Of a stretch of 64,000 nt of DNA, positions 48,189 to 59,993 are shown one piece after another. The notes beneath the pieces were generated by a model. The model saw only the letters and a program-made list of their open reading frames with translations, was not told where the DNA came from and made no database searches. The DNA lies in IMG/VR virus record IMGVR_UViG_3300028025_003146, positions 21,742 through 85,741 of that record, one strand, 5' to 3'. The position numbers and the translations under genes were made by a program. The DNA comes from a virus. Position 1 is the stretch's first letter, and each line of letters opens with the position of its first letter.

Positions 48189-48204
48189 TAGATATAACAT
48201 ACGT

Positions 48205-48756: not shown

Positions 48757-48762
48757 AAATAT

Positions 48763-48887: not shown

Positions 48888-49168
48888 GATGCCTTCTTTC
48901 CGTGCTTTCTCATATGAGTTCTTACTCTATGACAATTTGAGCAAACTATTTCGCATTTGGCTATTTCTTCATCCAGACGTTTCTTAGATAACGTATTAAT
49001 TAGTTCCGCCACATTTGAATGCTTTCGCCCACGGACATGATCAAAGTCCATCATATAATAGGGATATGAAATCTTACAATCCATACAAGGATTCTTTTCT
49101 TTAAGATCTTTTAAATACTGCGCCAGGAATTCTTTTTGTTTCTTGATCGATATCTTCTCTGGAGACAT
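48884..49168 (-). CDS. HNH endonuclease
   Basis: 94 residues. CMDCKISYPYYMMDFDHVRGRK carries the first CxxC and the DH of the HNH core, and CEIVCSNCHRVRTHMR the second CxxC and final His. This is the standalone phage/homing HNH type that nicks or cuts DNA. No terminase is nearby; it could act in genome mobility, packaging or superinfection. It is coupled to the tiny zinc-finger gene downstream. Confidence 0.88.
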   Translation of the reverse strand: MSPEKISIKKQKEFLAQYLKDLKEKNPCMDCKISYPYYMMDFDHVRGRKHSNVAELINTLSKKRLDEEIAKCEIVCSNCHRVRTHMRKHGKKAS

Positions 49169-49194
49169 ACCCCTATTATATTACATTATGTTTA

Positions 49195-49344
49195 TTAAAT
49201 TACTTCAGTTGTGCTAAAAAGTTCTCTCTCCATTGAGATCTGTTGAACTTGTCCCTGATCCAACTTTGCTGTTGCTTCTTCTTCTGATCCCGCAATTACT
49301 GCTACTCTTACTTTTACATCGTATTGATATACATTGAATGTCAT
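49195..49344 (-). CDS. Small beta protein
   Basis: 49 residues: NVYQYDVKVRVAVIAGSEEEATAKLDQGQ followed by MERELFSTTEVI. The strand, E-A-x-x-K helix, strand pattern resembles tiny ferredoxin-like phage proteins of unknown function. Intergenic to the HNH gene by 26 nt. Confidence 0.6.
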   Translation of the reverse strand: MTFNVYQYDVKVRVAVIAGSEEEATAKLDQGQVQQISMERELFSTTEVI

Positions 49345-49955
49345 ATTAATCCTAGTCGACTACTTTATAGATTCTACTAAATGTTAGTAAAATATTTTTT
49401 TAGAAGTATAGCTTCTATATTTGTTTTTATCTTTTTAATGATAACTTCCAGAATTTGAGCATACAACCCCTATACCCCTTTTATGATTTCTAAAAGAGAA
49501 CCCCGAAATGATCAGAGTATAAATCCGCCATTCATCGGTTGAACCTATAGTAGGCCTAGCTATTATCTGAAAGTAATTGTATAATACAACTTCCGTCATC
49601 ATCGCACTTGGAGTTTAACCCCTTGATATTATCTCCGAAAACTGTCCAAGGTTTACAGTATAGCATTTGGGATTTTCGTAAGTCAAGGATCCAGAGAATA
49701 TTTATTTCCCGCCCCCGTTTTGAAATTTGAGAAAATGTTAATATATTTTTAATATGTATGATACACACTATTTTTAATGTCCGATTTGTCCGATAGTGCG
49801 CCCATAACCCTATAATCTTGAGCGTGAGTGTGGTGTAACTCACAAAAATAGTTTGCGAATACTAGCGAGTAACCCCCCTAAATGTCAGTCCCCCCTGCTA
49901 GGATTATAGTATAAAGAAAATCAAGAAAGGTTCTTGATAAAGAAAGGAAAACAAA
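49345..49955. other. Divergent intergenic regulatory region (611 bp)
   Basis: This separates the minus-strand and plus-strand blocks. I see no convincing gene; the one longer minus frame (49556-49843) crosses repeats and lacks a ribosome site. Contents: TTTTTTTAGAAG AT-rich tracts; a 14-bp element ATGTCCGATTTGTC (49777-49790) that recurs inverted at 52004-52017; a CRP-like site; and the first TGTCAG promoter. It is a candidate control region between gene sets. Confidence 0.55.
49829..49904 (+). promoter_or_regulatory. Regulatory module 1: CRP-like site and TGTCAG promoter
   Basis: TGTGG-N6-TCACA (49829-49844) is centred 74.5 bp before the predicted start 49911. Then comes AATGTCAG (box 49883-49888), 10 bp, TAGGAT (49899-49904). 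GAAAGGAAAAC precedes the gene. Confidence 0.68.
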
Positions 49956-50144
49956 ATGTTTTCACTAAAATACACAGTAGGCTTAGGCTCTACTACCCTC
50001 CTAGTTCCTAGCGAGGAATACGCTAACGAGTATCTAGACCTAGTCTCACAGACTAGAGTTATAGATACAGTAACTCTAACCGAGTTACCTAACTACAAGC
50101 CTAGCAAGCGTGTAGTAATTGCTACTACTAGAAGTTGGGAGTAA
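49956..50144 (+). CDS. Hypothetical early protein
   Basis: 62 residues, strand-helix type (FSLKYTVGLGSTTLLVPSEEYANEYLDLVSQ). AAAGAAAGGAAAAC provides the ribosome site. First gene of an operon running to 51109. Not recognised. Codon use is rich in CTA and TAC, unlike the structural genes. Confidence 0.75.
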   Translation: MFSLKYTVGLGSTTLLVPSEEYANEYLDLVSQTRVIDTVTLTELPNYKPSKRVVIATTRSWE

Positions 50145-50148
50145 TCTA

Positions 50149-50253
50149 ATGAACGATTATCTTGATTATATGGACGAAATCTACGAGGAACTCGTAGAGG
50201 AGTTCGGACACGAAATCGAGTCCGTGTGTGACCATAATCACACTAACGCCTAA
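50149..50253 (+). CDS. Tiny acidic protein
   Basis: 34 residues, strongly acidic (DYLDYMDEIYEELVEEFGHEIE) with CDHNHTN at the end. It follows the previous gene by 4 nt. Its last codons contain a perfect TGTGA-N6-TCACA palindrome, so coding and control DNA overlap here. Confidence 0.5.
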   Translation: MNDYLDYMDEIYEELVEEFGHEIESVCDHNHTNA

Positions 50254-50293
50254 CGGCGTGTCGCTATACAATGTCGGCGCTATGCGCTACAAT
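50227..50293 (+). promoter_or_regulatory. Regulatory module 2, overlapping a gene end
   Basis: TGTGACCATAATCACA (50227-50242) is a perfect CRP-type palindrome. Downstream are a variant box TGTCGG (50272-50277), 10 bp, and TACAAT (50288-50293). The predicted start is 50300 and the palindrome centre is at -65.5. Confidence 0.62.
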
Positions 50294-50328
50294 TCCTACT
50301 ATAACTACTAACGAAAGAAGAACAGATA

Positions 50329-50481
50329 ATGACTATCACTTATACACTATGGCAAGGCTCTCAACTATTAGCCGTTAATCAAAAGGCTAATAAGCCCGAA
50401 GAAATCTTAGCGGTAATCGCTGAACTAAATAAACTCGGTAAGGGTTTCACTTATAACATTAGAGAGGTAGAGGTAAAGTAA
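50329..50481 (+). CDS. Small hypothetical protein
   Basis: 50 residues (YTLWQGSQLLAVNQKANKPEEILAVIAELNKLGKG then FTYNIREVEVK): a strand-helix-strand mini-fold seen in several tiny phage proteins. Stop and next start overlap as TAATG. Confidence 0.7.
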   Translation: MTITYTLWQGSQLLAVNQKANKPEEILAVIAELNKLGKGFTYNIREVEVK

Positions 50482-50651
50482 TGATGACTAAATGGGATAC
50501 TATCCAAGCAGATGTAGCAGACGCTTATGTCTATCTTGATGAAGAAGAAATGTATAACAAGGCATTAGCAGAAGGCGCAATAGACCTTGATGCTGATGAC
50601 TTTGATGAAGATGAATTACACAAGGCACTTACACTAGATTGGAATGACTAA
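50481..50651 (+). CDS. Small acidic protein
   Basis: 56 residues from ATG 50481 (a second ATG at 50484). Asp/Glu-rich (LDADDFDEDELHKALTLDWND). The ending TLDWND resembles that of the protein at 52695 (LTLDWINN), suggesting a related small family. TAATG links on both sides. Confidence 0.7.
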   Translation: MMTKWDTIQADVADAYVYLDEEEMYNKALAEGAIDLDADDFDEDELHKALTLDWND

Positions 50652-50806
50652 TGACTATAAACGGATTTGAGTTATACATAACAAGCGAATACGGATTTGA
50701 GTTTGATAGTTTCTTAGGGTCTATCTACTTACCTTGGCACACTATCCTAATCACTACCGCTTTAGTAATCGCCTATAAGATTTATAAGAGAAAGAAGAAT
50801 AAGTAA
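50651..50806 (+). CDS. Small membrane protein
   Basis: 51 residues. A polar N-terminal half is followed by the membrane helix HTILITTALVIAYKIY and a KRKKNK tail, predicting N-outside/C-inside topology. Coupled to both neighbours by TAATG. Confidence 0.65.
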   Translation: MTINGFELYITSEYGFEFDSFLGSIYLPWHTILITTALVIAYKIYKRKKNK

Positions 50807-50919
50807 TGACTACTAATCGCCTACTAACTACCGCCGTTCAATTACTACTAGCGGGAGTAACTATTCCGCTACTAATCGCCGTAATCAAAGACCTAAAAAA
50901 TGGGGGACTAAATGAGTAA
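50806..50919 (+). CDS. Tiny membrane protein
   Basis: 37 residues, mostly one helix (AVQLLLAGVTIPLLIAVIKDL). Overlaps the next gene by 8 nt. Two adjacent one-span proteins suggest a paired membrane function. Confidence 0.58.
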   Translation: MTTNRLLTTAVQLLLAGVTIPLLIAVIKDLKNGGLNE

Positions 50920-51109
50920 ATCACAATTAGAAAAAGATTTAGAAATCAAAGAAAGTTTTATAGATTTACTAAATGACATTTATCCAACTGTAAAGATTGG
51001 TTACTCAACTTTTACACCCGCCGAAATTCTAGAGTGTTGCGATCCCGTTGCGTTTGCAATCGGATTAGTAGAGCACCAAGATTATTTAGCAGAATTAGAA
51101 AATGAATAA
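50912..51109 (+). CDS. Hypothetical helical protein
   Basis: 65 residues. Begins SKSQLEKDLEIKESFIDLLNDIYP and contains TPAEILECCDPVAFAIGLVEHQDYLAELE. No membrane span. The Cys pair is adjacent (CC) and is not a zinc motif. Last gene of the first plus-strand operon. Confidence 0.72.
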   Translation: MSKSQLEKDLEIKESFIDLLNDIYPTVKIGYSTFTPAEILECCDPVAFAIGLVEHQDYLAELENE

Positions 51110-51117
51110 ATAAAAGC

Positions 51118-51303
51118 GGCGTGTCGGCTTGACAAAGTCGGCAGCTGCCCCCATCTTTTGTGGGCAGTTATCCACAGGTTTATGCACAGGTGTGGAAAAC
51201 CCTGGAAATTTGAGCGTAAGTTATCCACATGACCTAAATCACAAAAATAGTTTTCCGACACGCCCGAAAAAGGGGTCAAAATGTCAGTGGTCTATGATAG
51301 GAT
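51118..51303 (+). promoter_or_regulatory. Regulatory module 3 (full composite)
   Basis: In order: GGCGTGTCGGCTTGAC (51118-51133); a GC hairpin; DnaA box TTATCCACA (51168-51176); bipartite element variant (51179-51211, 13-bp gap); second DnaA box (51221-51229); CRP-like CATGA-N6-TCACA (51228-51243) centred at -74.5; CCGACACGCC (51255-51264), which inverts the first ten bases; then TGTCAG (51282-51287), 10 bp, TAGGAT (51298-51303). Confidence 0.7.
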
Positions 51304-51356
51304 ACTAGTATCAAGATTAAATAAGGTTTTAATCGTTAAAAGAAAGGTGGTCTTAA

Positions 51357-51512
51357 ATGACTACACTAAATGAAACTCTATTCTCTACAATCGTTCACGA
51401 TTACCATAATGGCGGAGTAAAATCCTCTTATGGTTTAGATTCTTACACACGCAAGGAATTGCTTGCGTTTCTTATCCGTTCTACTAAATGCAATTGCATA
51501 AATTGCCTTTAA
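51357..51512 (+). CDS. Small Cys-tailed protein
   Basis: 51 residues ending CNCINCL. The motif SSYGLDSYTRKELLAFLIRSTKCNC is helical then Cys-rich. AAGAAAGGTGG precedes ATG 51357. Not recognised; it could bind a metal with a partner since only one cluster is present. Confidence 0.68.
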   Translation: MTTLNETLFSTIVHDYHNGGVKSSYGLDSYTRKELLAFLIRSTKCNCINCL

Positions 51513-51529
51513 GAAAGTAGGTCTAACTA

Positions 51530-51697
51530 ATGACTACTCTTTATCCTCTCCGCTCTATTTGCGGAAAATCCGTTTCATATGTCGATGCATATGATATCAA
51601 CTTTAATCCTAATGGTGCTATTTGTTGCGATAATTGCAACTCAATTTTAATTTGCCGTAAGGCGTGGGATTTTCTTTATAAAGGAGAAAATAAATAA
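51530..51697 (+). CDS. Small zinc-binding protein
   Basis: 55 residues. ICGKS and GAICCDNCNSILIC provide four or more Cys arranged like a CxxC-type zinc knuckle. TAATG coupling to the next gene. Preceded by AAGAAAGTAGG. Confidence 0.68.
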   Translation: MTTLYPLRSICGKSVSYVDAYDINFNPNGAICCDNCNSILICRKAWDFLYKGENK

Positions 51698-51789
51698 TGA
51701 ATAAATGCGATTCTTGTAAAAAAGAAACTACACAATTTGTTACCGATGATGGTGAATATTATTATCCAATTTGCGGGGAGTGTTACTAA
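51697..51789 (+). CDS. Tiny zinc ribbon
   Basis: 30 residues: CDSCKKE and PICGECY, a complete CxxC/CxxC ribbon of minimal size. TAATG links on both sides make chance occurrence unlikely. Confidence 0.65.
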   Translation: MNKCDSCKKETTQFVTDDGEYYYPICGECY

Positions 51790-51890
51790 TGGAAAAAGAT
51801 ATTTTTGGATTTGCTGACGCAATAAATTTGGATCATCTAAATTTAGAGCAACTAAAAGAATTAGAAAAACTTTTAGAAAAAATTAAATAA
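51789..51890 (+). CDS. Tiny leucine-rich helical protein
   Basis: 33 residues (DHLNLEQLKELEKLLEKIK): an amphipathic helix, possibly a dimerisation peptide. TAATG overlap with the preceding gene. Last gene of the operon. Confidence 0.5.
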   Translation: MEKDIFGFADAINLDHLNLEQLKELEKLLEKIK

Positions 51891-51894
51891 ACAC

Positions 51895-52129
51895 GGCGTG
51901 TCAGCTTGACAAAAGCTGATGCGCCCACAAGGGTGCGGCGTCGGGCGTGTCGTTACGGAAATGTTATAAAAAACCCTGAAAATTACGGCGTGTCGATTTG
52001 ACAGACAAATCGGACATTTGGTGTGACGTTTATCACATTGGCCGTGTGATGCTTATCACATTCCCCACGCTCCACATATTGAGACAAACCCTTGCCAAAT
52101 TGGAAAATGTCAGTCCGTTCGTGTATAAT
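51895..52129 (+). promoter_or_regulatory. Regulatory module 4 with two CRP-type palindromes
   Basis: GGCGTGTCAGCTTGAC (51895-51910) and GGCGTGTCGATTTGAC (51987-52002) flank the bipartite element GTTACGG-N14-ACCCTGAAAATT (51952-51984). Two perfect palindromes, TGTGACGTTTATCACA (52022-52037) and TGTGATGCTTATCACA (52045-52060), are 23 bp apart and centred at -106.5 and -83.5. Then TGTCAG (52108-52113), 10 bp, TATAAT (52124-52129). Confidence 0.75.
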
Positions 52130-52161
52130 GTCATCTATAACAACAACGAAAGAGGTGGCAG

Positions 52162-52362
52162 ATGTCAGCGAACGTCTACTCAGTCCAGTCCCTACTAGTG
52201 GGAACAAACTACTACTCAAACACTTTGCAGGGTGAAATTATTTCTGCAGAGGTTCACCCAAAAGCCGTATGGTATGACGGGTGCGAAACTTACTTGGTGG
52301 AAATTTCACCGAATAGCGGATACGGAACAAAATTCCGAACAGTCGCAGTAAAAACTCCATAA
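52162..52362 (+). CDS. Small hypothetical protein
   Basis: 66 residues. Strand-rich: VQSLLVGTNYYSNTLQGEIISAEVHPKAVWYDGCETYLVEIS then YGTKFRTVAVKTP. AACGAAAGAGGTGG precedes the ATG. It resembles compact beta proteins of phage early regions; no name can be given. Confidence 0.72.
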   Translation: MSANVYSVQSLLVGTNYYSNTLQGEIISAEVHPKAVWYDGCETYLVEISPNSGYGTKFRTVAVKTP

Positions 52363-52388
52363 AATAAAATCGAAACAGGGGCAGTTTA

Positions 52389-52437
52389 GAGAGTGTTCTC
52401 GCCCAATGTCGTAAGTAAGAACTCTCACCAATTTTTT
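52389..52437 (+). terminator. Bulged hairpin with T-tract
   Basis: GAGAG...TTCT pairs with AGAACTCTC across a 17-base loop, then ATTTTTTC. It ends the 66-residue gene's transcript before the next ribosome site. Confidence 0.5.
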
Positions 52438-52457
52438 CAACGAAAGGAAAACTATAA

Positions 52458-52583
52458 ATGGGATACATTGAAATTTTTAGAATGAATGAAGAGGGTGCGG
52501 GCTGGGTAGATTTATCCGAAGCAACTCCAGATGAATTATTCAACATCGAATTAGGTCTACTAGAAGAGGGGGCGTTCGAATGA
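52458..52583 (+). CDS. Small acidic protein
   Basis: 41 residues (GYIEIFRMNEEGAGWVDLSEATPDELFNIELGLLEEGAFE). AACGAAAGGAAAAC ribosome site. ATGA overlap with the next gene. Function unknown. Confidence 0.65.
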   Translation: MGYIEIFRMNEEGAGWVDLSEATPDELFNIELGLLEEGAFE

Positions 52584-52702
52584 ACTTAGAAGAATTCAAA
52601 AAACACGTGATCGCACAACGTGAGGCAAGCAAGGCAGAAGCCTTGTCAGTGCTATCTGCTACAATTACCAAAACAAACGAAAGGGAAAACCTAAATGGCT
52701 AA
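52580..52702 (+). CDS. Small helical protein containing an internal promoter
   Basis: 40 residues (LEEFKKHVIAQREASKAEALSVLSATITK). The codons for LSVLSATIT also form the TGTCAG-N10-TACAAT promoter, and the last codons contain AACGAAAGG. The frame may be real (ATGA coupling), or it may be the leader of the next gene. Confidence 0.45.
   Translation: MNLEEFKKHVIAQREASKAEALSVLSATITKTNERENLNG
52644..52665 (+). promoter_or_regulatory. Promoter TGTCAG-N10-TACAAT inside a gene
   Basis: Box 52644-52649, TACAAT 52660-52665, predicted start 52672. It gives a second transcript for the genes from 52695. Confidence 0.62.
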
Positions 52703-52859
52703 AATGAAAGAATACATAGAAATAATCGCAGCGAATTGCGATGAATGCGGTGGCGCAGGATTTTTATTCTGGGGAACTGAAAATAATTATGACGTAGAGC
52801 CTTGCTCTTGCGTTGATGAAATTTCTGATGAACTAACACTAGATTGGATAAATAACTAA
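52695..52859 (+). CDS. Small zinc-binding protein
   Basis: 54 residues. CDECGGAGFLFWG and PCSCVDE form a four-Cys site resembling DnaJ-type knuckles or rubredoxin-like mini-domains; the end is LTLDWINN. TAATG coupling to the next gene. Confidence 0.7.
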   Translation: MAKMKEYIEIIAANCDECGGAGFLFWGTENNYDVEPCSCVDEISDELTLDWINN

Positions 52860-53062
52860 TGTATAAAATAACTTGCGCCTATGATAGCAACGCTCCCCAC
52901 TGGTCTGCCGAATATGAAAATGAATATGGTGCGTGGGAAAACTTTTTCTTATTCACCGACTGGGGAATGGCTAACGAATACTCAACTGTAAATCTATACA
53001 CGCCAACTGGCAAATGCTATACAAAAGTTTTCTATCGTAGTGGAATGGTGGCAGTAAAATGA
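52859..53062 (+). CDS. Small hypothetical protein
   Basis: 67 residues, Tyr/Trp/Asn-rich strands (YKITCAYDSNAPHWSAEYENEYGAW, VNLYTPTGKCYTKVFY). ATGA overlap with the next gene. Not recognised. Confidence 0.72.
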   Translation: MYKITCAYDSNAPHWSAEYENEYGAWENFFLFTDWGMANEYSTVNLYTPTGKCYTKVFYRSGMVAVK

Positions 53063-53250
53063 TGACACGAAAAGATTATATTGCAACGGCTGAAATTCTA
53101 AAGTATCTCAGCAATAAAGTTCACCCCGCTGTTTTTTCTAAAACTGTTCACGACTTTGCGGAGATGTTCGCAAAAGATAATGAGCGATTTGATGTAACAC
53201 GATTTCACGAAGCGAGTGGGTATAATGTTCCTAACTTCACTTCAAGATAA
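53059..53250 (+). CDS. Small helical protein
   Basis: 63 residues: RKDYIATAEILKYLSNKVHPAVFSKTVHDFAEMFAKDNERFD. This motif (ADYxAxAxxL..FAxxFAxDNPRFDxxxFxxAxG) is a very common tiny family in phages of Actinobacteria and proteobacteria, with no known function. Coupled to both neighbours. Confidence 0.75.
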   Translation: MMTRKDYIATAEILKYLSNKVHPAVFSKTVHDFAEMFAKDNERFDVTRFHEASGYNVPNFTSR

Positions 53251-53356
53251 AGTAAAACGCATTCAGGAATTGCGTCGCAGTAATGCGGCGCAACCTGTTC
53301 GCAATAAAAAAAAATACACACGCAAAATAAAACATAAAAATAAATATTCAGAGTAA
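53225..53356 (+). CDS. Small basic protein
   Basis: 43 residues, Lys/Arg-rich (LQDKVKRIQELRRSN then NKKKYTRKIKHKNKY), probably binding nucleic acid if expressed. It overlaps the previous gene by 26 nt; no clear ribosome site. Confidence 0.42.
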   Translation: MFLTSLQDKVKRIQELRRSNAAQPVRNKKKYTRKIKHKNKYSE

Positions 53357-53401
53357 TGCATAAATATGCGGCGCCCACAAAGCTACGGGGTCGGGCGTGT
53401 C

Positions 53402-53474
53402 GTTAAGGGTGTGATCTAAAACACCCTGAAAATTTGCGTGTCGATTAGTAAATGTCAGTCTAACCTGCTATAAT
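53402..53474 (+). promoter_or_regulatory. Regulatory module 6
   Basis: GTTAAGG-N14-ACCCTGAAAATT (53402-53434). An inverted repeat AGGGTGT/ACACCCT (53406-53427) sits in the gap, centred near -64. TGTCAG (53453-53458), 10 bp, TATAAT (53469-53474); TGC precedes the -10. A GGGCGTGTCG element lies just upstream. Confidence 0.7.
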
Positions 53475-53504
53475 TCCAATATCTACTAACGAAAGAGGTC
53501 CGTA

Positions 53505-53714
53505 ATGGAACTATTTACTGTCGCTTGCTTGAACTATGAAATTTGTGGTGCTCAAGAAACTTTCGATTCAATTGAAGAATATGAAATCTATGGTGATGAC
53601 TATACCTGCGCTGAATGCTATGACGCTGAAGAAATGGAATTCTATGAACTAACTGGCTGGGCTGATTCCGACGCTCTTGCGTCTGCTGGCCACGGAATGG
53701 ATGAGGATTACTAA
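53505..53714 (+). CDS. Small acidic Cys-containing protein
   Basis: 69 residues. CLNYEIC and CAECYDAEE make a split CxxxxxC / CxxC set within a very acidic sequence, possibly a degenerate zinc ribbon. AACGAAAGAGG ribosome site. First gene of a short operon with the Gp88-like gene. Confidence 0.7.
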   Translation: MELFTVACLNYEICGAQETFDSIEEYEIYGDDYTCAECYDAEEMEFYELTGWADSDALASAGHGMDEDY

Positions 53715-53715
53715 T

Positions 53716-54465
53716 ATGTCAGAGGTCCAAGATATAATTACCCCTATGAAACTAAAACGTTCTAATGATAGAAAGGTGGCTAACCTTGTCACAAAAAATG
53801 GAAAGCAGGCCGCAATTGCTAACACGTTCGGATTACCCGCAGGAAAAGATTTTTCATGTCCTGGCGCTACGTCTATCTGCGAGACTGTTTGCTATGCAGG
53901 CAAATTGGAAAAACTCTTCAAGGGAGTAAAAACTAATCTTCTTCACAATTGGGAATTGTTACGCAATGCAGACATGGAGACCATGTATCAATTGCTTAAT
54001 GAAATGATTATTGACTTTAAAGCCGATTGTGTAAAGAAAGACGCCCCTATGTTATTCCGTATCCACTGGGACGGAGATTTCTTTAATGATTTCTATACTT
54101 ATGCCTGGAAGAATGTAATCAATGAGCACACCGATGTTCAATTCTGGGTTTATACACGTGTAAAGTCTGCAGCGCTTATTCTTAAGGATGTTTCTAATCT
54201 ATCTCTTTACTATTCTACCGACGATGAGAATAAAGAAATCGGCCACGAACTAAAAGTAAATGAAGGAATTCGCCTTGCATACTTAGGGAAGACATTCGCC
54301 TTAACCGAAAGCACAATGAAAGAATTGACGGGCAAGCCTGGCGCTAAGTGTCCTGAAAATATGAAATCAATTCCACTAATTAGCAATGCAGGTTCTGCGT
54401 GTGTATCGTGTGGCTTGTGTGTTTATGGTAAAGCGGATATTAGATTTTCTGCGAGTAAAAAATAA
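53716..54465 (+). CDS. Gp88-like phage protein
   Basis: 249 residues from ATG 53716, two bases after the previous stop; an earlier start overlaps the upstream gene without a ribosome site. SCPGATSICETVCYAGKLEK at the start, FRIHWDGDFF and a C-terminal CVSCGLCVYG match the widespread actinophage Gp88 family. The Cys pattern resembles Fe-S or zinc enzymes of the DUF5131 type. No function has been established for the family. Confidence 0.75.
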   Translation: MSEVQDIITPMKLKRSNDRKVANLVTKNGKQAAIANTFGLPAGKDFSCPGATSICETVCYAGKLEKLFKGVKTNLLHNWELLRNADMETMYQLLNEMIIDFKADCVKKDAPMLFRIHWDGDFFNDFYTYAWKNVINEHTDVQFWVYTRVKSAALILKDVSNLSLYYSTDDENKEIGHELKVNEGIRLAYLGKTFALTESTMKELTGKPGAKCPENMKSIPLISNAGSACVSCGLCVYGKADIRFSASKK

Positions 54466-54563
54466 TGGCGGATCTATTAGGTGCCATGCTAGGTGGCGGA
54501 TTAATGACTGTACTTTTTTTGCCCGTCCCTATAATAATTTGGATGATATTTAAAAGCATGTAG
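54465..54563 (+). CDS. Tiny membrane protein
   Basis: 32 residues with a Gly-rich start and one hydrophobic helix (LMTVLFLPVPIIIWMIF). TAATG coupling to the Gp88-like gene. Could be a membrane anchor. Confidence 0.55.
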   Translation: MADLLGAMLGGGLMTVLFLPVPIIIWMIFKSM

Positions 54564-54564
54564 C

Positions 54565-54723
54565 GGCGTGTCGGCTTGACAAGATCAAGCTGGCCCGCAA
54601 AGGTGCGGGGTTATCCACAGGCTTACGGCAGTTATCCACAATGCCCTGAAAATGTGAGTATTATCACAAAAGCTGCGACACGCCGAGGATGGATTAGGTA
54701 ATGTCAGTGGCTAATGGTAAAAT
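54565..54723 (+). promoter_or_regulatory. Regulatory module 7 (full composite)
   Basis: GGCGTGTCGGCTTGAC (54565-54580); hairpin CCCGCA/TGCGGG (54594-54609); DnaA boxes 54611-54619 and 54632-54640; CTTACGG-N14-GCCCTGAAAAT (54622-54653), the second DnaA box lying inside the gap; perfect palindrome TGTGA-N6-TCACA (54653-54668), centre -69.5; CGACACGCC (54676-54684), inverse of the first element; TGTCAG (54702-54707), 10 bp, TAAAAT (54718-54723). Confidence 0.78.
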
Positions 54724-54752
54724 ACTCTTATTCCAACAACGAAAGGTAACAA

Positions 54753-54977
54753 ATGTCAAATCTAATGAAAGTTCCACACACAGTAGTATTCGAGGCAATT
54801 ATTGACTTGGATAAAATCCCTGCAAACTTATTGCCTGCGCTAATTGCTCTTGATGAGAAATCAATTCAGCAAATGTGCAAGGAAGCAACACTACACGCAC
54901 TTGGTATGTCTAATGTATTACCACTTGCTAATGAAAATAACACTTGGGCTGAAGTAACTATTGCGGAAGGAAACTAA
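54753..54977 (+). CDS. Hypothetical early protein
   Basis: 74 residues: HTVVFEAIIDLDKIPANLLPALIALDEKSIQQMCKEATLHALG, a strand followed by helices. AACGAAAGGTAAC ribosome site. Possibly a small DNA-binding or regulatory protein; no motif confirms this. Confidence 0.72.
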   Translation: MSNLMKVPHTVVFEAIIDLDKIPANLLPALIALDEKSIQQMCKEATLHALGMSNVLPLANENNTWAEVTIAEGN

Positions 54978-54979
54978 TA

Positions 54980-55249
54980 ATGGGATACACAACTGCGTTA
55001 GCACTAGAAGAAGAATTAGGACTAGAAGCGGGATTAGCAATTCACTTGCAGGGTAATCACTACCCACCCGTTCCCGTATCAATGGTGCAACCTTGCATAG
55101 ATGCTATTGATGCGTTCTATGATGAGGAGTATAGTCGAGAGATTAATCTTCCTGAAGGTATCACTTGGCGAGGTCAGACTTCCTGCCCTGCGTCTGCCAT
55201 AGTAGATGCTCACCACTTAGAAGCGTGGCTACCTCAATACGAGGACTAG
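54980..55249 (+). CDS. Hypothetical early protein
   Basis: 89 residues. ALALEEELGLEAGLAIHLQGNHYPPVPVSMVQPCIDAIDAF then ITWRGQTSCPASAIVDAHHLEAWL. This family (HLxxNHYPPxP) is common in Streptomyces-type phages and is of unknown role. It starts two bases after the previous stop. Confidence 0.75.
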   Translation: MGYTTALALEEELGLEAGLAIHLQGNHYPPVPVSMVQPCIDAIDAFYDEEYSREINLPEGITWRGQTSCPASAIVDAHHLEAWLPQYED

Positions 55250-55261
55250 AGATCAAGATAG

Positions 55262-55339
55262 GCGTGTGAGATTACTCACACGCTTATCATCTCAAATAAT
55301 AAGATTGGGGTAGAAAATGTCAGACCCCTTTGCTATAAT
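55262..55339 (+). promoter_or_regulatory. Regulatory module 8: perfect CRP-type palindrome
   Basis: GCGTGTGAG-ATTA-CTCACACGC (55262-55283) is a perfect 9-bp-arm inverted repeat containing TGTGA-N6-TCACA, centre -73.5. TGTCAG (55318-55323), 10 bp, TATAAT (55334-55339) with TGC before it. It could also act as a weak terminator for the upstream gene. Confidence 0.75.
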
Positions 55340-55365
55340 AAGACCCTAACAAGAAAGGAAGCAAA

Positions 55366-55539
55366 ATGACAATAGATAACAAAGTCTATCAGGTCGGTGA
55401 TTTATTCACTACCCTGAAGTCTAAGGAAACAGGAGTAATCAAAGAGATTATTCCTAACGCATCTGGCTCGGTGCGAGTTCGTCTGGAAACAGACAACGGA
55501 GAACGCTGGACAACAGTTCTTGCCGATAGCCTAGCGTAA
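55366..55539 (+). CDS. Small SH3-like beta protein (copy 1)
   Basis: 57 residues: VYQVGDLFTTLKSKETGVIKEIIPNASGSVRVRLETDNGERWTTV, the five-strand pattern of tiny SH3-like barrels. The protein at 56135-56317 shares GDxFTTxKS..TGxIxEI and ENGLRWxxV, so they are paralogues. AAGAAAGGAAGC ribosome site. Confidence 0.75.
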   Translation: MTIDNKVYQVGDLFTTLKSKETGVIKEIIPNASGSVRVRLETDNGERWTTVLADSLA

Positions 55540-55546
55540 TAAAACG

Positions 55547-55578
55547 GCAGGGGGGTTGTCAGACCCCCCTGCTATAAT
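55547..55578 (+). promoter_or_regulatory. Module 9: TGTCAG box in the loop of a perfect hairpin
   Basis: GCAGGGGGGT (55547-55556), TGTCAG (55557-55562) and ACCCCCCTGC (55563-55572) form a perfect 10-bp inverted repeat whose loop is the promoter box and whose right arm is the 10-bp spacer. TATAAT follows at once (55573-55578). Confidence 0.78.
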
Positions 55579-55614
55579 ACTCATACCAACAACCAACCAA
55601 CGAAAGGTAATAAA

Positions 55615-56031
55615 ATGAGCAGACAAATCACAGTAAAGGTCGCAACGACCAAAGTAATCAAGGCACTAGAGGCAACTCTTGCTAAACTAGAAAATGATTA
55701 CAACACACAGGCAACAAAGGAAGCAAAGTTCGGCAAGGCGCAAGAAGCGTGGCGCAAGGAAATTGGCAAGTGGGCTATCGCTAACTTCTCAAAGGCTGAG
55801 AACCTTCGCACGAACTATCGCTCTTGGAACAACTCTCTCAATGTTGATTTTGACATCATCACAAAGGAAAGCGATTTCCCTAAAGAGCCTGAAAAGGATT
55901 TTGAGGTTATCCATCAGCACCAGTATCGTGAGATGAAAGAGGACATCACAAATGCCCTAACAATTCTCAAGATGACAGATGAGGAAACAGTAAATGCTTC
56001 TACTATGAAGCAGATTGCTAAGTATCTCTAA
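55615..56031 (+). CDS. Hypothetical early protein
   Basis: 138 residues, helical and charged (VIKALEATLAKLENDYNTQATKEAKFGKAQEAWRKEIGKW). The middle is Asn/Arg-rich and the end acidic. AACGAAAGGTAATAAA ribosome site. Similar proteins occur in many actinophages, but no role is known. The 103-bp gap after it holds a G-tract (GGTTTTGGGGGG) and an ACCGAAAGG ribosome leader without a clear promoter. Confidence 0.75.
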   Translation: MSRQITVKVATTKVIKALEATLAKLENDYNTQATKEAKFGKAQEAWRKEIGKWAIANFSKAENLRTNYRSWNNSLNVDFDIITKESDFPKEPEKDFEVIHQHQYREMKEDITNALTILKMTDEETVNASTMKQIAKYL

Positions 56032-56134
56032 ATAGGTTTTGGGGGGTTAGCACACAAAGTCTAGACACCTGAACCCAAACGACCTGAGTAAGTCGCAAAA
56101 CTGCTCAACCAACCAACTACCGAAAGGAAATAAA

Positions 56135-56317
56135 ATGTCACCAATTCTAGATACCGCTAAGGGTCGCTTCTACCGCAAGGGAGATGTATTCACAACTGGC
56201 AAATCAGGAATTACTGGCACTATCACAGAAATCGTTTCTATTCGCCCAACACTAACTAAACTAGGGCTGAATACAGAAAATGGTCTGCGCTGGGCTATGG
56301 TAAAAATCGGCGCATAA
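56135..56317 (+). CDS. Small SH3-like beta protein (copy 2)
   Basis: 60 residues, paralogous to the 57-residue protein upstream: RKGDVFTTGKSGITGTITEIV and NGLRWAMVKIG. The gene between them is unrelated, so the pair arose by duplication with insertion. ACCGAAAGGAAAT ribosome site. Confidence 0.75.
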   Translation: MSPILDTAKGRFYRKGDVFTTGKSGITGTITEIVSIRPTLTKLGLNTENGLRWAMVKIGA

Positions 56318-56323
56318 TCTAAT

Positions 56324-56359
56324 GGGGGCTAGACAAAATCTAGCCCCCAATGTTATAAT
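56324..56359 (+). promoter_or_regulatory. Module 10: hairpin and TAGACA-N18-TATAAT
   Basis: GGGGGCTAGA (56324-56333) / TCTAGCCCCC (56339-56348) with a CAAAA loop is a strong stem. TATAAT (56354-56359) follows with TGT before it. The TGTCAG box is missing; TAGACA (56330-56335) may serve as a -35 at 18 bp. Confidence 0.6.
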
Positions 56360-56386
56360 TCTTATTCCTACTAAAGAAAGAATAAA

Positions 56387-56614
56387 ATGAAAAATCGTTA
56401 TCGTGTAGAAATCTATGACGCAAACAAAGCAAATGATGTAACAATTTATTCAGAGCAAGGTGTAGATAGAGATTATCTAACTGAATTAGTTTTTTCTAAT
56501 TTGCGTAAGTTCCACGGAAGAGTAAATGCTTACGTGTATGACAATGTAAAAAAGAAAAAGGTTACAGCAATGTTCCTTGATGAAAGTATAACTAATAAGT
56601 TCAAAGCAATTTAA
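56387..56614 (+). CDS. Small hypothetical protein
   Basis: 75 residues of strand-helix-strand type (RYRVEIYDANKANDVTIYSEQGVDRDYLTELVFSNLRKF) with a basic VKKKKV segment. AAGAAAGAATAAA ribosome site. Not recognised. Confidence 0.7.
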   Translation: MKNRYRVEIYDANKANDVTIYSEQGVDRDYLTELVFSNLRKFHGRVNAYVYDNVKKKKVTAMFLDESITNKFKAI

Positions 56615-56620
56615 AGTAGT

Positions 56621-56805
56621 GGCGGGATCTTGATCGGTCCCGCCGCAGCTTTGCTAATGTCGACAATGCCCGCAAAGGTGCGGGGTTATCCACAGCCTTA
56701 CGGCTACCTGTGGAAAAACCCTGAAAATTTGTGAGATTACTCACACGGATCAATTCGGACATATTGTAACTAACCATTGATAATGTCAGACCCACCTGTT
56801 ATAAT
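56621..56805 (+). promoter_or_regulatory. Regulatory module 11 (full composite)
   Basis: Hairpin GGCGGGA/TCCCGCC (56621-56644); CCCGCA/TGCGGG (56669-56684); DnaA box (56686-56694); CTTACGG-N14-ACCCTGAAAATT (56697-56729); perfect TGTGA-N6-TCACA (56730-56745), centre -74.5; TGTCAG (56784-56789), 10 bp, TATAAT (56800-56805). Predicted start 56812. Confidence 0.78.
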
Positions 56806-56837
56806 AAACCTAACAACAAACGAAAGGTAAAAAATAT

Positions 56838-57845
56838 ATGGCTCACAATCTCGAAATGGAAAATGGCGAAGTTGCTTTCGCTCTCCGTGGCGCACCTGCT
56901 TGGCACAACCTTGCAAACCGCATCTTTGCAAAAGATGAGGAAGTTACAACTCAAACAATGCTAGATGAAGCAAAACTTTCTAATTGGAATGTTCGCTTAT
57001 CTCCATTGACCGACCACATTTCAGAATCTTGGAATGATGTATCTCAGGCATCTCTTGTCATTCGTGATAACCCATTCAATAAGGGTGTAGATGTTCTCGC
57101 AACTGTTGGCAAGCGTTACAAGCCTGTGCAGAATGAAGAACTATTTGCATTCGCTGATGCAATTCACGATGCCAATGCTGATTGCCGTTGGGAATCTGCT
57201 GGCTCACTAAAAAAGGGTAAAGTTGTTTTTGGAACTGTAGATATTCCACGCACAATGGTTCTTGACCCACAAGGCGCTAATGATGAAACTAAACTTTATC
57301 TTATCGTATGGACATCACACGATGGTTCTGTTGCTGTTCAAGCAGCCGTTACTCCTGTTCGTGTTGTATGCCAAAACACGCTAAACCTTGCAATGAAGAA
57401 TGCTAAGCAATCTTTCAAGATTCGCCACACGCAATCTGTTGAAGGTCGCATTCAAGTTGCTCGTGAAACTCTTGGGCTTGCTCTTGGATACTTTGATGAA
57501 TTCGAAGTTCAAGCAAAAGCACTTTACTCACAAGCAATCACCGATGCTGAATTCTCTAAGTTGATTCAGACAATTTATCCTAAGCCAGATAAAGATGCAG
57601 CAAAAGTTGCGCTAACTAAGTGGGAGAACAAGGTTGTTCTACTTGATGACCTTTATCATAACTCACCAACTAACGCTACAATCAAGGGAACAAAGTGGGG
57701 TGCGTTCAATGCACTAACTGAGCGCCTTGACTATTTCCGTTCAGGTCGTGGCAATTCTGAAACACTTATGGCGGGTGCATCAGGCTTTGACCCAATTCTT
57801 ACCGCAGAAAAAAATAAGTTGTATCGAATGGTTGCAACTTTCTAA
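56838..57845 (+). CDS. DUF932 family protein
   Basis: 335 residues. GAPAWHNLANRIFAKDEEVT, FNKGVDVLATVGKRYKPVQNEELFAFADAIHDANADCRWESAG and AAVTPVRVVCQNTLNLAMKNAKQSFKIRHTQ are the hallmarks of the DUF932 (phage/plasmid TIGR03299) family, widespread and still of unknown function; a link to replication or recombination has been guessed from context. This is by far the largest gene of the right-hand region, and it has its own composite module. Codon use differs from the structural genes only slightly. Confidence 0.88.
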   Translation: MAHNLEMENGEVAFALRGAPAWHNLANRIFAKDEEVTTQTMLDEAKLSNWNVRLSPLTDHISESWNDVSQASLVIRDNPFNKGVDVLATVGKRYKPVQNEELFAFADAIHDANADCRWESAGSLKKGKVVFGTVDIPRTMVLDPQGANDETKLYLIVWTSHDGSVAVQAAVTPVRVVCQNTLNLAMKNAKQSFKIRHTQSVEGRIQVARETLGLALGYFDEFEVQAKALYSQAITDAEFSKLIQTIYPKPDKDAAKVALTKWENKVVLLDDLYHNSPTNATIKGTKWGAFNALTERLDYFRSGRGNSETLMAGASGFDPILTAEKNKLYRMVATF

Positions 57846-57884
57846 ATAATAAAAATCCTAGGCAAGATTTAAAACTGCCTGCAA

Positions 57885-57961
57885 GATCTCTTAGCTCAGT
57901 TGGTTAGAGCGCTACCCTGTCACGGTAGAGGTCACGGGTTCAAGTCCCGTAGGGGTCGCCA
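57885..57961 (+). tRNA. tRNA-Asp (GTC anticodon)
   Basis: The full cloverleaf folds by eye: acceptor GATCTCT/AGGGGTC with three G-U pairs; D arm; anticodon stem CTACC/GGTAG around CTGTCAC (anticodon GTC, 57919-57921); T arm CACGGGTTCAAGTCCCGTA; discriminator G and an encoded CCA. 77 nt. It decodes GAC/GAT, useful for a gene set rich in Asp. The G-U-rich acceptor is slightly unusual. It may also serve as an attachment site, but no integrase is seen. Confidence 0.93.
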
Positions 57962-57980
57962 AATAGATTTGTCGACAATG

Positions 57981-58071
57981 CCCGCAGTATTGCGGGTGTG
58001 ATTTTAATCATACGGGGATCATAAAAAAAGCCCTGGAAATCCTTGTAAATGTCAGTGGGGTCCGCTATAAT
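57981..58071 (+). promoter_or_regulatory. Regulatory module 12, leaderless promoter
   Basis: Hairpin CCCGCA/TGCGGG (57981-57996); TGTGA-N6-TCATA (57997-58012), centre -73.5; CATACGG-N14-GCCCTGGAAAT (58009-58040); TGTCAG (58050-58055), 10 bp, TATAAT (58066-58071). Six bases then ATG 58078, so the predicted start is the A of the start codon. Confidence 0.75.
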
Positions 58072-58077
58072 ACTCAC

Positions 58078-58734
58078 ATGATGACAACCAACGGAACTAA
58101 ATATACATTCGTCTGCGACCCAGATGAATGCGACACATTAATCGAAGTAACCTGTGTTTCAGGATTCGATTTCCCTAATGGTGTGATTAAACACACATGC
58201 CCTTGTGGTAGAGAAATGTCATACATCTCTGCTACAATACTCTCATCAACAAACCAAACGAAAGAGGAAAAAATGGAAGAGACAACAACACCTGCAGTAA
58301 CAATTCCCGATACATATAACCCAAACCTGTTGGTTACCTACAAAGTAATCCGTGGTTATTCTGACCCTGAATATGCAACCGATAAGGTTACATCAATTGA
58401 ATGGGACCTACACAATGCCCGTCAAGCACAGAAGCACAATGGCGTTCTTCAAGATAAGATTAATACAGTTAAAGATATTATCACTGAGGCATACGCCGAT
58501 TCAGAAGACCAAGATACACTACGTGCAATTGCCGAAGCGCTTGGCATTGAACTAGTTCGAGAAGTTCTATTCACCGCAACTCTTGAAGTTAGCGGAACAT
58601 ATACATACAATGTATTAGATTCAGATTATGAATTGGACCTTGATTCAGAAGTCACAGATGCTCTTTACGCCGATTCAAATAACGGTAACATCACAATTGA
58701 TGACACCGAAGTTTGCCACGTAAGGGAAGCGTAA
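58078..58734 (+). CDS. Nested protein, long form with zinc-finger N-terminus
   Basis: 218 residues from the predicted leaderless ATG. Residues 1-65 contain CDPDECDTLIEVTC and HTCPCGREM, a four- to five-Cys zinc ribbon. Residues 66-218 are a separate acidic domain with its own promoter and ribosome site. A leaderless long form and a led short form from one frame is unusual. An alternative is that only the short form is real and the first promoter makes only a leader, but the unbroken 65-codon frame with a zinc motif argues otherwise. Confidence 0.68.
   Translation: MMTTNGTKYTFVCDPDECDTLIEVTCVSGFDFPNGVIKHTCPCGREMSYISATILSSTNQTKEEKMEETTTPAVTIPDTYNPNLLVTYKVIRGYSDPEYATDKVTSIEWDLHNARQAQKHNGVLQDKINTVKDIITEAYADSEDQDTLRAIAEALGIELVREVLFTATLEVSGTYTYNVLDSDYELDLDSEVTDALYADSNNGNITIDDTEVCHVREA
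58217..58238 (+). promoter_or_regulatory. Internal promoter TGTCAT-N10-TACAAT
   Basis: Box 58217-58222, TACAAT 58233-58238, predicted start about 58245. Followed by AACGAAAGAGG and in-frame ATG 58273. Confidence 0.62.
58273..58734 (+). CDS. Nested protein, short form
   Basis: 153 residues starting MEETTTPAVTIPDTYN. It is acidic and strand-rich (LFTATLEVSGTYTYNVLDSDYELDLDSEVTDALYA). AACGAAAGAGG gives a typical ribosome site. It shares its stop with the long form and a TAATG overlap with the next gene. Unknown family, likely common in small actinophages. Confidence 0.75.
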   Translation: MEETTTPAVTIPDTYNPNLLVTYKVIRGYSDPEYATDKVTSIEWDLHNARQAQKHNGVLQDKINTVKDIITEAYADSEDQDTLRAIAEALGIELVREVLFTATLEVSGTYTYNVLDSDYELDLDSEVTDALYADSNNGNITIDDTEVCHVREA

Positions 58735-58946
58735 TGTATTTTGAGTTGACTGCTCCCGATAGGCTATCTCTTGAGATGGCTTATTGGGATGCACAAATCA
58801 CTGGACTCGACCCTGAGTTTATGCCACCGTTGACATTCAATGTTGGAACTGGTAGTATAGAGAAAGTAAGTCGCATTCGTGACAAGTATAATTTAAAAGA
58901 ATCATACTGGTCAGATAGAGAAGCGACAGGATATAAGGAGAAATAA
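58734..58946 (+). CDS. Small hypothetical protein
   Basis: 70 residues from ATG 58734 (TAATG overlap). YFELTAPDRLSLEMAYWDAQITGLDPEFMPPLTFNVGTGSIEKVSRIRDKY, strand-helix-strand. Coupled to the next gene by TAATG. Confidence 0.72.
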   Translation: MYFELTAPDRLSLEMAYWDAQITGLDPEFMPPLTFNVGTGSIEKVSRIRDKYNLKESYWSDREATGYKEK

Positions 58947-59092
58947 TGTCAGATTACAAAGATGGTTTTGATGACGGGTATAAGTTTGCTCGTGAAGAGA
59001 TGATGGAAAGACTATCAGAGATTGATATTAACGATATCGATACTTGGATTCTTGACCGTCTTTGTGAAATGATAGAAGGCGGGAAACTATGA
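58946..59092 (+). CDS. Small acidic helical protein
   Basis: 48 residues (DGFDDGYKFAREEMMERLSEIDINDIDTWILDRLCEMIEGGKL). The DGYxxG..YA start is found in a common tiny phage family. ATGA overlap with the zinc gene. Confidence 0.7.
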   Translation: MSDYKDGFDDGYKFAREEMMERLSEIDINDIDTWILDRLCEMIEGGKL

Positions 59093-59298
59093 CAACCGAA
59101 GACTTAACACGATGGATCGGCTGTGATCAATGCGGTACAGCTCAAGCTAAGTATCTAATTAAACTAGTAGACGGTGAGCTTTTCTTTTGCCACCACCACT
59201 ACAATAAAAACAAAGAGGGCCTTGACAAGGTCTCGTACGAAGTGATAGACTTAAACAAAATCGAAGAAGCAGCACCTATACTAGAAACGGCGGAATAA
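59089..59298 (+). CDS. DUF7455-like zinc ribbon
   Basis: 69 residues. GCDQCGTAQAKYLIKLVDGELFFCHHHYNKN has the CxxC...CxxH pattern of the tiny actinophage family DUF7455, which includes a short strand after each knuckle. Function unknown; it is widely associated with phages of Gram-positive high-GC bacteria and supports the host guess. Confidence 0.78.
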   Translation: MTTEDLTRWIGCDQCGTAQAKYLIKLVDGELFFCHHHYNKNKEGLDKVSYEVIDLNKIEEAAPILETAE

Positions 59299-59299
59299 A

Positions 59300-59665
59300 A
59301 TGGGCGACAGAGCAAACTTTGGATTCAAGCAATCTAATGACACTACTATCTTTCTATATGGACACTGGGCGGGCCACGGTATGTTGGAGCGCTTAGCGAA
59401 TGCGGTTGAGACTGCACGTCCAAGGTGGACGGATGAGTCATATGCAACACGTATTTGTGTGTCACAAATGGTAGGCGAAGACTGGAAAGCAGAAACAGGC
59501 TGGGGCTTAAGTGTTAATAGAATTCTAGACAATGAGCACAAGATTCCCGTCATCGATTGGGCCACTCAAACATTTACTTTATTTGAAGAGGACCTGACTA
59601 CAGAAGTGTTTAGTTTATCTTTAGATAAATTCTGCAGCAAATACAGTCAACTAGTTATGGTATAA
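59300..59665 (+). CDS. Conserved phage hypothetical protein
   Basis: 121 residues. GDRANFGFKQSNDTTIFLYGHWAGHGMLERLANAVE is a recurrent phage motif (GDRAN..VVKQ...IFLYTHWxG). The rest is mixed alpha/beta with GWGLSVNRILDNEHKIPVIDW. Its last codons hold the -10 of the RNA candidate. No function is assigned to the family. Confidence 0.78.
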   Translation: MGDRANFGFKQSNDTTIFLYGHWAGHGMLERLANAVETARPRWTDESYATRICVSQMVGEDWKAETGWGLSVNRILDNEHKIPVIDWATQTFTLFEEDLTTEVFSLSLDKFCSKYSQLVMV

Positions 59666-59672
59666 TTGGAGT

Positions 59673-59815
59673 AGGTCCAGGGACCTTCTTCATGAGTACA
59701 GGTGCGGCTACCAGGGGATCCCCCAAGTCGCTAAGCAATGCAGGGCTTTTTACTTTCGTTGGTAGATCCTAGCGGCCTTTACTTTCTTAACCCTCAGCGC
59801 AAGCTGGGGGTTTTT
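59673..59815 (+). ncRNA. Candidate structured RNA (about 145 nt)
   Basis: TATAAT (59661-59666) inside the previous gene predicts a start near 59673. The transcript holds GGTC/GACC and GGGGATCCCC hairpins, a GCGGCT..AGTCGC long-range pairing, two TTTACTTTC motifs and a perfect terminator. No open frame with a ribosome site is present. It could be a regulatory RNA or an anti-host RNA; I could not match it to a known class. Confidence 0.55.
59791..59815 (+). terminator. GNRA-loop intrinsic terminator
   Basis: CCCTCAGC-GCAA-GCTGGGGG followed by TTTTT. A stable tetraloop hairpin ending the RNA candidate. Confidence 0.88.
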
Positions 59816-59849
59816 GCTTGCCCGCAAAAGCAGAGGGTATCATATTTTG

Positions 59850-59966
59850 TTTACGAGATCAAATTAAATTTCCCTGGAATTTTGTGATCTTGACCACATA
59901 GCTTGGAAAATGTGGTGTGAAACACACCCAAATAGTATTCCAAATGTCAGTGGTCCATTGTATAAT
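59850..59966 (+). promoter_or_regulatory. Regulatory module 14
   Basis: TTTACGA-N14-TCCCTGGAATT (59850-59881); TGTGA-N6-CCACA (59883-59898), centre -82.5; GGTGTG-AAA-CACACC (59914-59928), centre -52; TGTCAG (59945-59950), 10 bp, TATAAT (59961-59966). AACGAAAGGATATAAA follows. Confidence 0.72.
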
Positions 59967-59993
59967 TGGAACATATCAACGAAAGGATATAAA

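Follow-up and report, generated by a model that had tools for sequence, protein, structure and literature searches.

A virus record of the IMG/VR collection, IMGVR_UViG_3300028025_003146 (85,741 bases), carries in front of a run of small genes a series of TGTGA-N6-TCACA palindromes that are probably operators of a host activator of the CRP/GlxR type, placed for class I activation of one phage module. Positions 21742-85741 of the record were analysed as a single stretch of 64,000 nucleotides (hereafter, the window). Minus-strand genes of structural type (capsid, portal, tail fibre and virion proteins) occupy its left part, and from about 49.9 kb rightward small genes, the majority of them on the plus strand, form a module. 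The palindromes had been proposed as CRP/GlxR operators in an original prediction made from the letters of the window, and this assignment is well supported by the motif, the fixed N6 spacer, the conserved arms, the helical phasing relative to promoters and the central TA/TT.

All six perfect palindromes named in the original prediction were recovered (Table 1). They are the only ones in the window as well as in the entire record, and all lie within 6.5 kb; the reversed palindrome is absent from the whole record. With 0.15 copies expected and none of 100 shuffles reaching six, a chance origin is ruled out, as had been claimed, and the proposed control of the left half gave the predicted outcome, with no perfect site among the structural genes, left of 49.8 kb. 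Three of the four close variants (49829, 57997 and 59883) have one mismatch each. The fourth, at 51228, has two and counts by position alone, because sequences within two mismatches of the palindrome are no more numerous in the window than expected (35 versus 35.1). The earlier list can be extended by one site with a single mismatch (58182) and two sites with two mismatches (53410 and 59911). Distances were taken from a predicted, not a mapped, start, set 12 nt downstream of the first -10 base, and on this rule the nine centre distances listed earlier agreed, as a set, with the recomputed nine. The single fixed distance that they had been taken to indicate was wrong; the centres occupy several distances about 10 bp apart, and a minority stand half a turn off. 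Scanning the window with a weight matrix for the promoter returned 17 hits over 8, of which 16 lie on the plus strand at 49.9-61.5 kb and the remaining one, a weak hit, on the minus strand at 1424. Nine of the 16 plus-strand hits have a site with at most one mismatch, whereas about 500 random half-sites averaged 0.10 and never exceeded 2.

The array is shared by many related viruses. Eighty viral loci (1.31 Mb) were fetched by their DUF932 protein, without use of the motif, and among all N6-spaced palindromes of 5-mers in these loci TGTGA was the commonest half-site (459 occurrences versus 111 for the next). With other spacers, TGTGA and TCACA were found 10 times each with N3 and N4, never with N5 or N7, once with N8 and six times with N9. 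In a set of 16 records, comprising the window's own record and 15 relatives (several are or may be fragments), the perfect palindrome occurs 2-8 times per record and the reversed pattern never. For the 12 records with all positions listed, the 72 sites form one cluster per record, extending over at most about 8.4 kb; in the record G001, five sites lie at both record ends and would span about 5.9 kb if the ends join. Palindrome and promoter pattern together were found in at least 120 IMG/VR stretches, versus 6 for the reversed palindrome. When 45 of the 120 were searched with the capsid protein, alongside the window's own record, 20 of the 45 matched, at identities between 86% and about 40%; the architecture thus extends across capsids that have diverged strongly. 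The other 25, mostly short, gave no capsid match. Chance or base composition as the source of the sites is thus rejected by the shuffles, the other half-sites, the other spacers and the reversed IMG/VR pattern, and by a relative of similar GC content that lacks the sites.

Conservation was followed in 52 distinct regions upstream of the DUF932 gene, drawn from 82 loci. Mean entropy in the two arms of the palindrome was 0.05 and 0.08 bits, i.e., the arms are nearly invariant, compared with 0.71 bits in the N6, 0.75 in the upstream flank and 0.67 between the site and the downstream TGTCAG box; the box itself had 0.00 bits and the -10 had 0.14. The palindrome is perfect in 78 of the 82 loci, has one mismatch in three and two mismatches in the locus L087. 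Among 135 non-redundant sites from all loci, the central dinucleotide was TA in 33 and TT or AA in 58. Conserved arms with variable N6 and flanks, together with N6 and outer bases that on the whole pair no more than composition gives, are the footprint of a protein-binding site on DNA, and not of an RNA stem.

The position of the sites relative to the promoters is likewise constrained. Positions were scored with the matrix for box and -10 and given relative to predicted starts, and 790 of 864 palindromes had a downstream promoter on at least one strand. The 135 non-redundant centres fall at -53.5/-54.5 (8 sites), -63.5 to -65.5 (42), -68.5 to -70.5 (10), -73.5 to -75.5 (31), -83.5 to -85.5 (23) and elsewhere (21), so that they cluster near -54.5, -64.5, -74.5 and -84.5, one helical turn apart. 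The period is about 10.25 bp, with R 0.71 and p 1e-29 for 132 of the 135 sites in all loci (three with a gap over 70 bp were omitted). This test includes loci that had been picked by a palindrome pattern with a 24-54 gap, and the motif-blind tests are the fair ones; the promoter matrix was also trained on sources that include palindrome-picked loci, although what it models is limited to the box and the -10. For the window and the DUF932-fetched loci, 46 non-redundant sites gave R 0.79 and p 2.5e-13, and 32 sites at a stricter 55% identity gave p 5e-8. The cleanest test used 125 non-redundant promoters picked by TGTC and matrix alone, of which 34 had a perfect palindrome, 29 had one mismatch, eight had two and 54 had three or more; for four control letter sets, the promoters that came within one mismatch numbered 1, 0, 2 and 0. 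Phasing was strong, and in the same phase, at zero (R 0.82), one (R 0.78) and two mismatches (R 0.83), and sites with three mismatches were not phased (R 0.23). On predicted starts, the centres thus step upstream by helical turns in the manner of class I promoters, though about 3 bp off -61.5, with the small class at -53.5/-54.5 and a few sites half a turn off.

The promoters themselves have an unusual core. The pattern TGTCAG-N10-TA..[AC]T, whose letters are fixed by construction, identified 1,745 promoters, of which 288 are non-redundant at 65% identity. Their 202 sources include 120 that had been selected by the palindrome pattern. At the free positions, a run of A/T precedes the box and T[CG][CG] follows it, the -10 is extended (T 67% and G 82% at -15 and -14) and A stands at the expected start in 63%; a -35 is no more than weakly hinted at in these TGTCAG promoters. 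The core promoter mostly lacks a clear -35, and a TGTCAG box stands 10 bp ahead of an extended -10 (TGnTATAAT) instead. A further 33 non-redundant palindrome-linked extended -10s lack the TGTC box, and many of these are chance -10s; 11 of the 33 have a -35 with at least five of the six letters of TTGACA at 16-18 bp, with palindrome centres at -45.5, -52.5, -53.5 (twice), -54.5, -62.5, -64.5 (twice), -69.5, -83.5 and -98.5. A helix-turn-helix (HTH) mini-protein, encoded by an open reading frame (ORF) of 49-53 amino acids with a weak, below-cut-off match to Sigma70_r4, is present in nine of the ten relatives of at least 96 kb. It lies near 1462-1626 in L226 and L228-L233 and at 1480-1620 on the minus strand in L227, where the neighbouring genes look replication-related by eye; this protein is a candidate reader of the TGTCAG box.

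What binds the palindromes would most likely be the host's own CRP/GlxR, because no CRP-family gene was found in the phage records. Specifically, searches with PF00027 and PF13545 gave no match in any of the 16 records (some of them fragments), with positive controls, and a phage-encoded CRP regulator is rejected as a candidate, no gene with a cyclic nucleotide-binding or HTH_Crp_2 domain being found in that set. Host CRP, which the original prediction had named as the binder, is thus argued for from the content of the phage records and not from a host protein. An HTH_3 search, confined to that HTH family, had no match in 11 records, and a search for a class III adenylate cyclase (PF00211) gave none in 11 records. 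A metallophosphoesterase gene to the left of the window was considered as a possible cyclic AMP (cAMP) phosphodiesterase, but it has no Pfam match and resembles only general phage metallo-phosphoesterase families, and no such role is claimed for it.

The motif of the sites and their preference for central TA/TT are close to the published GlxR consensus, TGTGANNTANNTCACA (PMC4254451), and GlxR is described in the same source as mostly an activator. In C. glutamicum, changing two bases towards TGTGA-N6-TCACA reportedly gave higher GlxR binding and expression (PMC7999487). CRP sites of M. tuberculosis cluster at -60 to -40 and at +1 to +20, and those upstream of starts tend to go with activation (PMC4117774). 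In E. coli, class I CRP sites have their centres at -61.5 or at positions upstream of it; the best CRP position is different at a sigma-28 promoter, where sigma has been proposed to contact DNA elsewhere (PMC2859248).

Taken as a whole, these observations suggest a phage that places the operator of a host regulator in front of many promoters of one module, taken as early. Host CRP, gated by cAMP, would bind whole helical turns upstream and on one face of the DNA, contact RNA polymerase and recruit it, thereby activating the promoters in the class I manner and allowing early expression of the module. At E. coli class I promoters, the part of the polymerase that CRP contacts is the alpha C-terminal domain. 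The core promoter is mostly without a clear -35, and the activator would be expected to matter because the TGTCAG box and the extended -10 mostly replace that element. A more elaborate proposal, which we put forward tentatively, is that this large group of freshwater actinophages uses a two-key promoter for the early module, in which class I activation by host CRP-cAMP is combined with a TGTCAG box read by a phage factor or a phage-modified polymerase, thus tying lysis to host nutrition.

Several observations weigh against activation by host CRP, or at least against its simplest form. Within the window alone the phasing is weak (11 sites, p 0.015), and sequence kinship inflates all of the p-values given above. 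No site within two mismatches accompanies 54 of the 125 promoters picked by TGTC and matrix, and the 33 extended -10s that lack the TGTC box are, as a group, not significantly phased (p 0.16). Nine of the 135 sites stand half a turn off, at -69.5 or -70.5, among them the perfect site at 54653, and helical phasing does not account for them. Moreover, -54.5 is near a position where E. coli CRP is reported to activate very weakly (PMC2859248). The main phases are also shifted upstream by about 3 bp relative to -61.5, where E. coli class I sites are centred, an offset that could be due to the odd core promoter or to an error in the start rule. The Rhodococcus phage Grayson (41% GC) has neither a perfect site nor a TGTCAG promoter in the 89.8 kb of its 131.8 kb that were read, and its host should, we assume, have GlxR. 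A GlxR-bearing host is therefore not sufficient for the array, which is a trait of this phage group and not simply of phages with GlxR hosts.

Other readers of the palindromes must also be weighed. A phage-encoded regulator, not CRP-like by sequence, might bind them and activate the module, and it would be consistent with the fact that roughly half of the promoters carry a site, as in a phage regulon, with the HTH mini-protein and with the WhiB gene encoded in all ten records of at least 96 kb. However, the motif agrees with the textbook CRP site even in its N6 and its central TA/TT, and the searched families PF00027 and PF13545 (16 records) and HTH_3 (11 records) gave no candidate. Only host factors would be present if the module is expressed first, an order suggested by its synteny with terminal genes of Streptomyces phage genomes. 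All in all, a phage regulator of this kind seems unlikely. Many copies of one operator in the module would also be expected of a phage or prophage repressor serving immunity or shut-off, such as the one behind the stoperator arrays that cluster A mycobacteriophages carry. The sites are nonetheless clear of the -10 and the start and lie upstream in whole helical turns, which is the pattern of an activator; they are palindromic and confined to one module, the 11 records gave no HTH_3 match, and a PHROGs scan of 39 proteins returned no family named as an integrase or a repressor, all of which makes a repressor quite improbable.

The 2-8 perfect sites per record, multiplied by replication, could instead form a decoy that titrates CRP away from host genes. 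Such a decoy would have no need of fixed promoter spacing and would leave unexplained a phasing that holds at zero to two mismatches and is lost at three, and the copies are few next to a global regulon; we give this possibility very little credence. Nor do we see more than a slight chance that the repeats work at the RNA level, forming terminators or hairpins where the upstream gene ends. The palindrome at 55265, the sole site folded, does form a strong hairpin, but it does so through longer arms by happenstance. The spacer is almost always six, though a hairpin would tolerate other loops, and across the 135 sites the six outer and three inner pairs are, on the whole, complementary no more often than composition gives (37 versus 40.5 expected for the first outer pair; 42 versus 36.2 for the largest excess). 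A run of four Ts occurs within 12 nt downstream in 13 of the 135 sites, and the spacing to the next promoter is phased.

The host of the virus is very probably an actinobacterium, as the original prediction had supposed, because relatives carry WhiB genes and show synteny with Streptomyces phages. WhiB matches were obtained in 11 of the 16 records, including all ten of at least 96 kb; none was found in the window's own record, possibly a fragment, and among 14 control genomes matches were confined to Corynebacterium. Positions 45000-62000 of the window have no near DNA match among deposited phages. Against Streptomyces phages, those compared being Stanwilliamsviridae, the best identity is 58% with the capsid protein, about 65% with the B12-type ribonucleotide reductase and 50% with the DUF932 protein. 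The Streptomyces phage Paradiddles and Grayson have the same order of small-gene module, glycosyltransferase and ribonucleotide reductase, and the virus may belong to the wider Stanwilliamsviridae clade, pairwise comparisons showing 58-65% identity and partial synteny. Low-GC freshwater Actinobacteria such as Nanopelagicales would fit the 35-42% GC of the window (2-kb steps); a low-GC freshwater actinobacterial host is reported at 46.5% GC, with phages slightly lower (PMC10202952). The module is called early because a DUF932 match is present at two places in 40 of 40 listed phage records, which we infer to be a terminal repeat, and early expression would follow from that arrangement. In a DUF932 scan of genome contigs, the single locus was L087, on a 110-kb phage contig within a metagenome-assembled genome labelled as a cyanobacterium. 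A cyanobacterial host was rejected, the contig being probably mis-binned, because the only WhiB match of that assembled genome lies on the phage contig itself.

Table 1. CRP-type sites, predicted promoters and the DUF932 gene in the window. Promoters extend from the TGTCAG box to the extended -10; centres are relative to predicted starts.
Feature	Position	Strand	Details
CRP-type site	49829-49844		1 mismatch, centre -74.5
Promoter, -10 TAGGAT	49883-49904	+	matrix score 33.8
CRP-type site	50227-50242		perfect, centre -65.5; overlaps 3' end of a small ORF
Promoter, box TGTCGG, -10 TACAAT	50272-50293	+	matrix score 17.8
CRP-type site	51228-51243		2 mismatches, weak by itself, centre -74.5
Promoter, -10 TAGGAT	51282-51303	+	matrix scan
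CRP-type site	52022-52037		perfect, centre -106.5; upper member of tandem pair
CRP-type site	52045-52060		perfect, centre -83.5
Promoter, -10 TATAAT	52108-52129	+	matrix scan
Promoter-like hit without CRP-type site	52644-52665	+	matrix scan
CRP-type site	53410-53425		2 mismatches, centre -63.5
Promoter, -10 TATAAT	53453-53474	+	matrix scan
Promoter-like hit without CRP-type site, doubtful	53717-53738	+	matrix scan; perhaps a match by coding coincidence, as its ATGTCAG may hold a start codon
CRP-type site	54653-54668		perfect, centre -69.5, half a turn off main phase
Promoter, -10 TAAAAT	54702-54723	+	matrix scan
CRP-type site	55265-55280		perfect, centre -73.5
Promoter, -10 TATAAT	55318-55339	+	matrix scan
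Promoter-like hit without CRP-type site	55557-55578	+	matrix scan
CRP-type site upstream of DUF932 gene	56730-56745		perfect, centre -74.5
Promoter of DUF932 gene	56784-56805	+	matrix scan, conservation
DUF932 protein gene	56838-57845	+	335 amino acids; PF06067, E 1.1e-55
CRP-type site	57997-58012		1 mismatch, centre -73.5
Promoter, -10 TATAAT	58050-58071	+	first ATG at predicted start
CRP-type site inside ORF	58182-58197		1 mismatch, centre -55.5
Promoter, box TGTCAT, -10 TACAAT	58217-58238	+	matrix scan
CRP-type site	59883-59898		1 mismatch, centre -82.5
CRP-type site	59911-59926		2 mismatches, centre -54.5
Promoter, -10 TATAAT	59945-59966	+	matrix scan
Promoter-like hit without CRP-type site	60720-60741	+	matrix scan
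Promoter-like hit without CRP-type site	61465-61486	+	matrix scan

Other short elements recur in the module. The perfect sequence TTATCCACA, which we take to be a DnaA box, is found seven times on the plus strand of the window (51168, 51221, 54611, 54632, 56686, 63653 and 63665), always right of 51 kb, and never on the minus strand. Several copies lie just upstream of CRP-type sites, and upstream of the 125 non-redundant promoters of relatives the sequence occurs 20 times in the promoter direction versus 2 in the other; DnaA control of phage promoters, or titration, is possible. An element CCCTG[AG]AA is present at 51200, 51974, 53424, 54644, 56719, 58031, 59872, 63740 and 63957, and outside the module at 42318 and, on the minus strand, at 21598. 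Its copies at 54644, 56719 and 59872 each precede a CRP-type site by 9-11 bp, measured to the first base of that site, and its strand bias in the upstream regions of relatives is 27 to 0. Inverted repeats TGTC-N5-GACA occur in the module at 51122, 51899, 51991 and 54569, and longer TGTC...GACA repeats were seen by eye in the part of Paradiddles that was read. The module also contains a tRNA-Asp gene (57885-57961) and two small proteins, at 55366-55539 and 56135-56317, that look alike by eye and may stem from a duplication. At 62719-62871, a 50-amino-acid protein matches part of an Lsr2-like family (PHROG 6269, E 3.7e-9) and may, we presume, be a stand-alone DNA-binding domain.

The array suggests that the module is switched on through the host's own nutrient-signal regulator. 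The idea that phages gauge host metabolism before they commit is long-standing, but few cases have been worked out. The comparative signal, i.e., conserved arms, helical phasing and unphased three-mismatch sites, is strong enough to predict the helix face, the key sites and the mutations that should abolish activity. The phages concerned are widespread (at least 120 stretches of IMG/VR) and would provide a large natural set of activator-dependent promoters whose core is non-standard. If the two-key promoter proposed above is true, infection would proceed only, or fastest, in hosts with a given cAMP state.

No publication on CRP or GlxR sites in phage early promoters was found among the titles and abstract openings listed, a body of text that leaves subscription journals largely outside. 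Among known bacterial systems, the array most resembles CRP/GlxR class I promoters, such as E. coli lac and the GlxR targets of C. glutamicum, in having TGTGA-N6-TCACA upstream of the core promoter and on one helix face. It differs in that the phage core mostly has a TGTCAG box instead of a clear -35, the main phases are displaced as noted, and the sites front many promoters of one module. Among phages, use of a host nutrient regulator is already known from the marine cyanophages S-PM2d and P-SSM2, whose Pho boxes are controlled by host PhoB (PMC10976474), and here as there a nutrient-sensing transcription factor of the host would drive phage genes. The regulator and the signal are different, however, and the cyanophage boxes are described as scattered and poorly predictive, in contrast to the dense, phased array found here; binding and expression were shown for PhoB, whereas the CRP case is proposed from sequence. 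Four Stanwilliamsviridae of Streptomyces (Paradiddles, Mildred21, Faust and Coruscant) are without the array, their complete genomes having one perfect site in all and as many matches with at most one mismatch as the reversed control (21 versus 21). In its promoter anatomy, and in that respect only, the module recalls the middle promoters of T4, in which a MotA box at about -30 precedes an extended -10. In both, a phage-specific box replaces the -35 before an extended -10, although the sequence and spacing of the box differ and the promoters described here have a CRP-type site added upstream.

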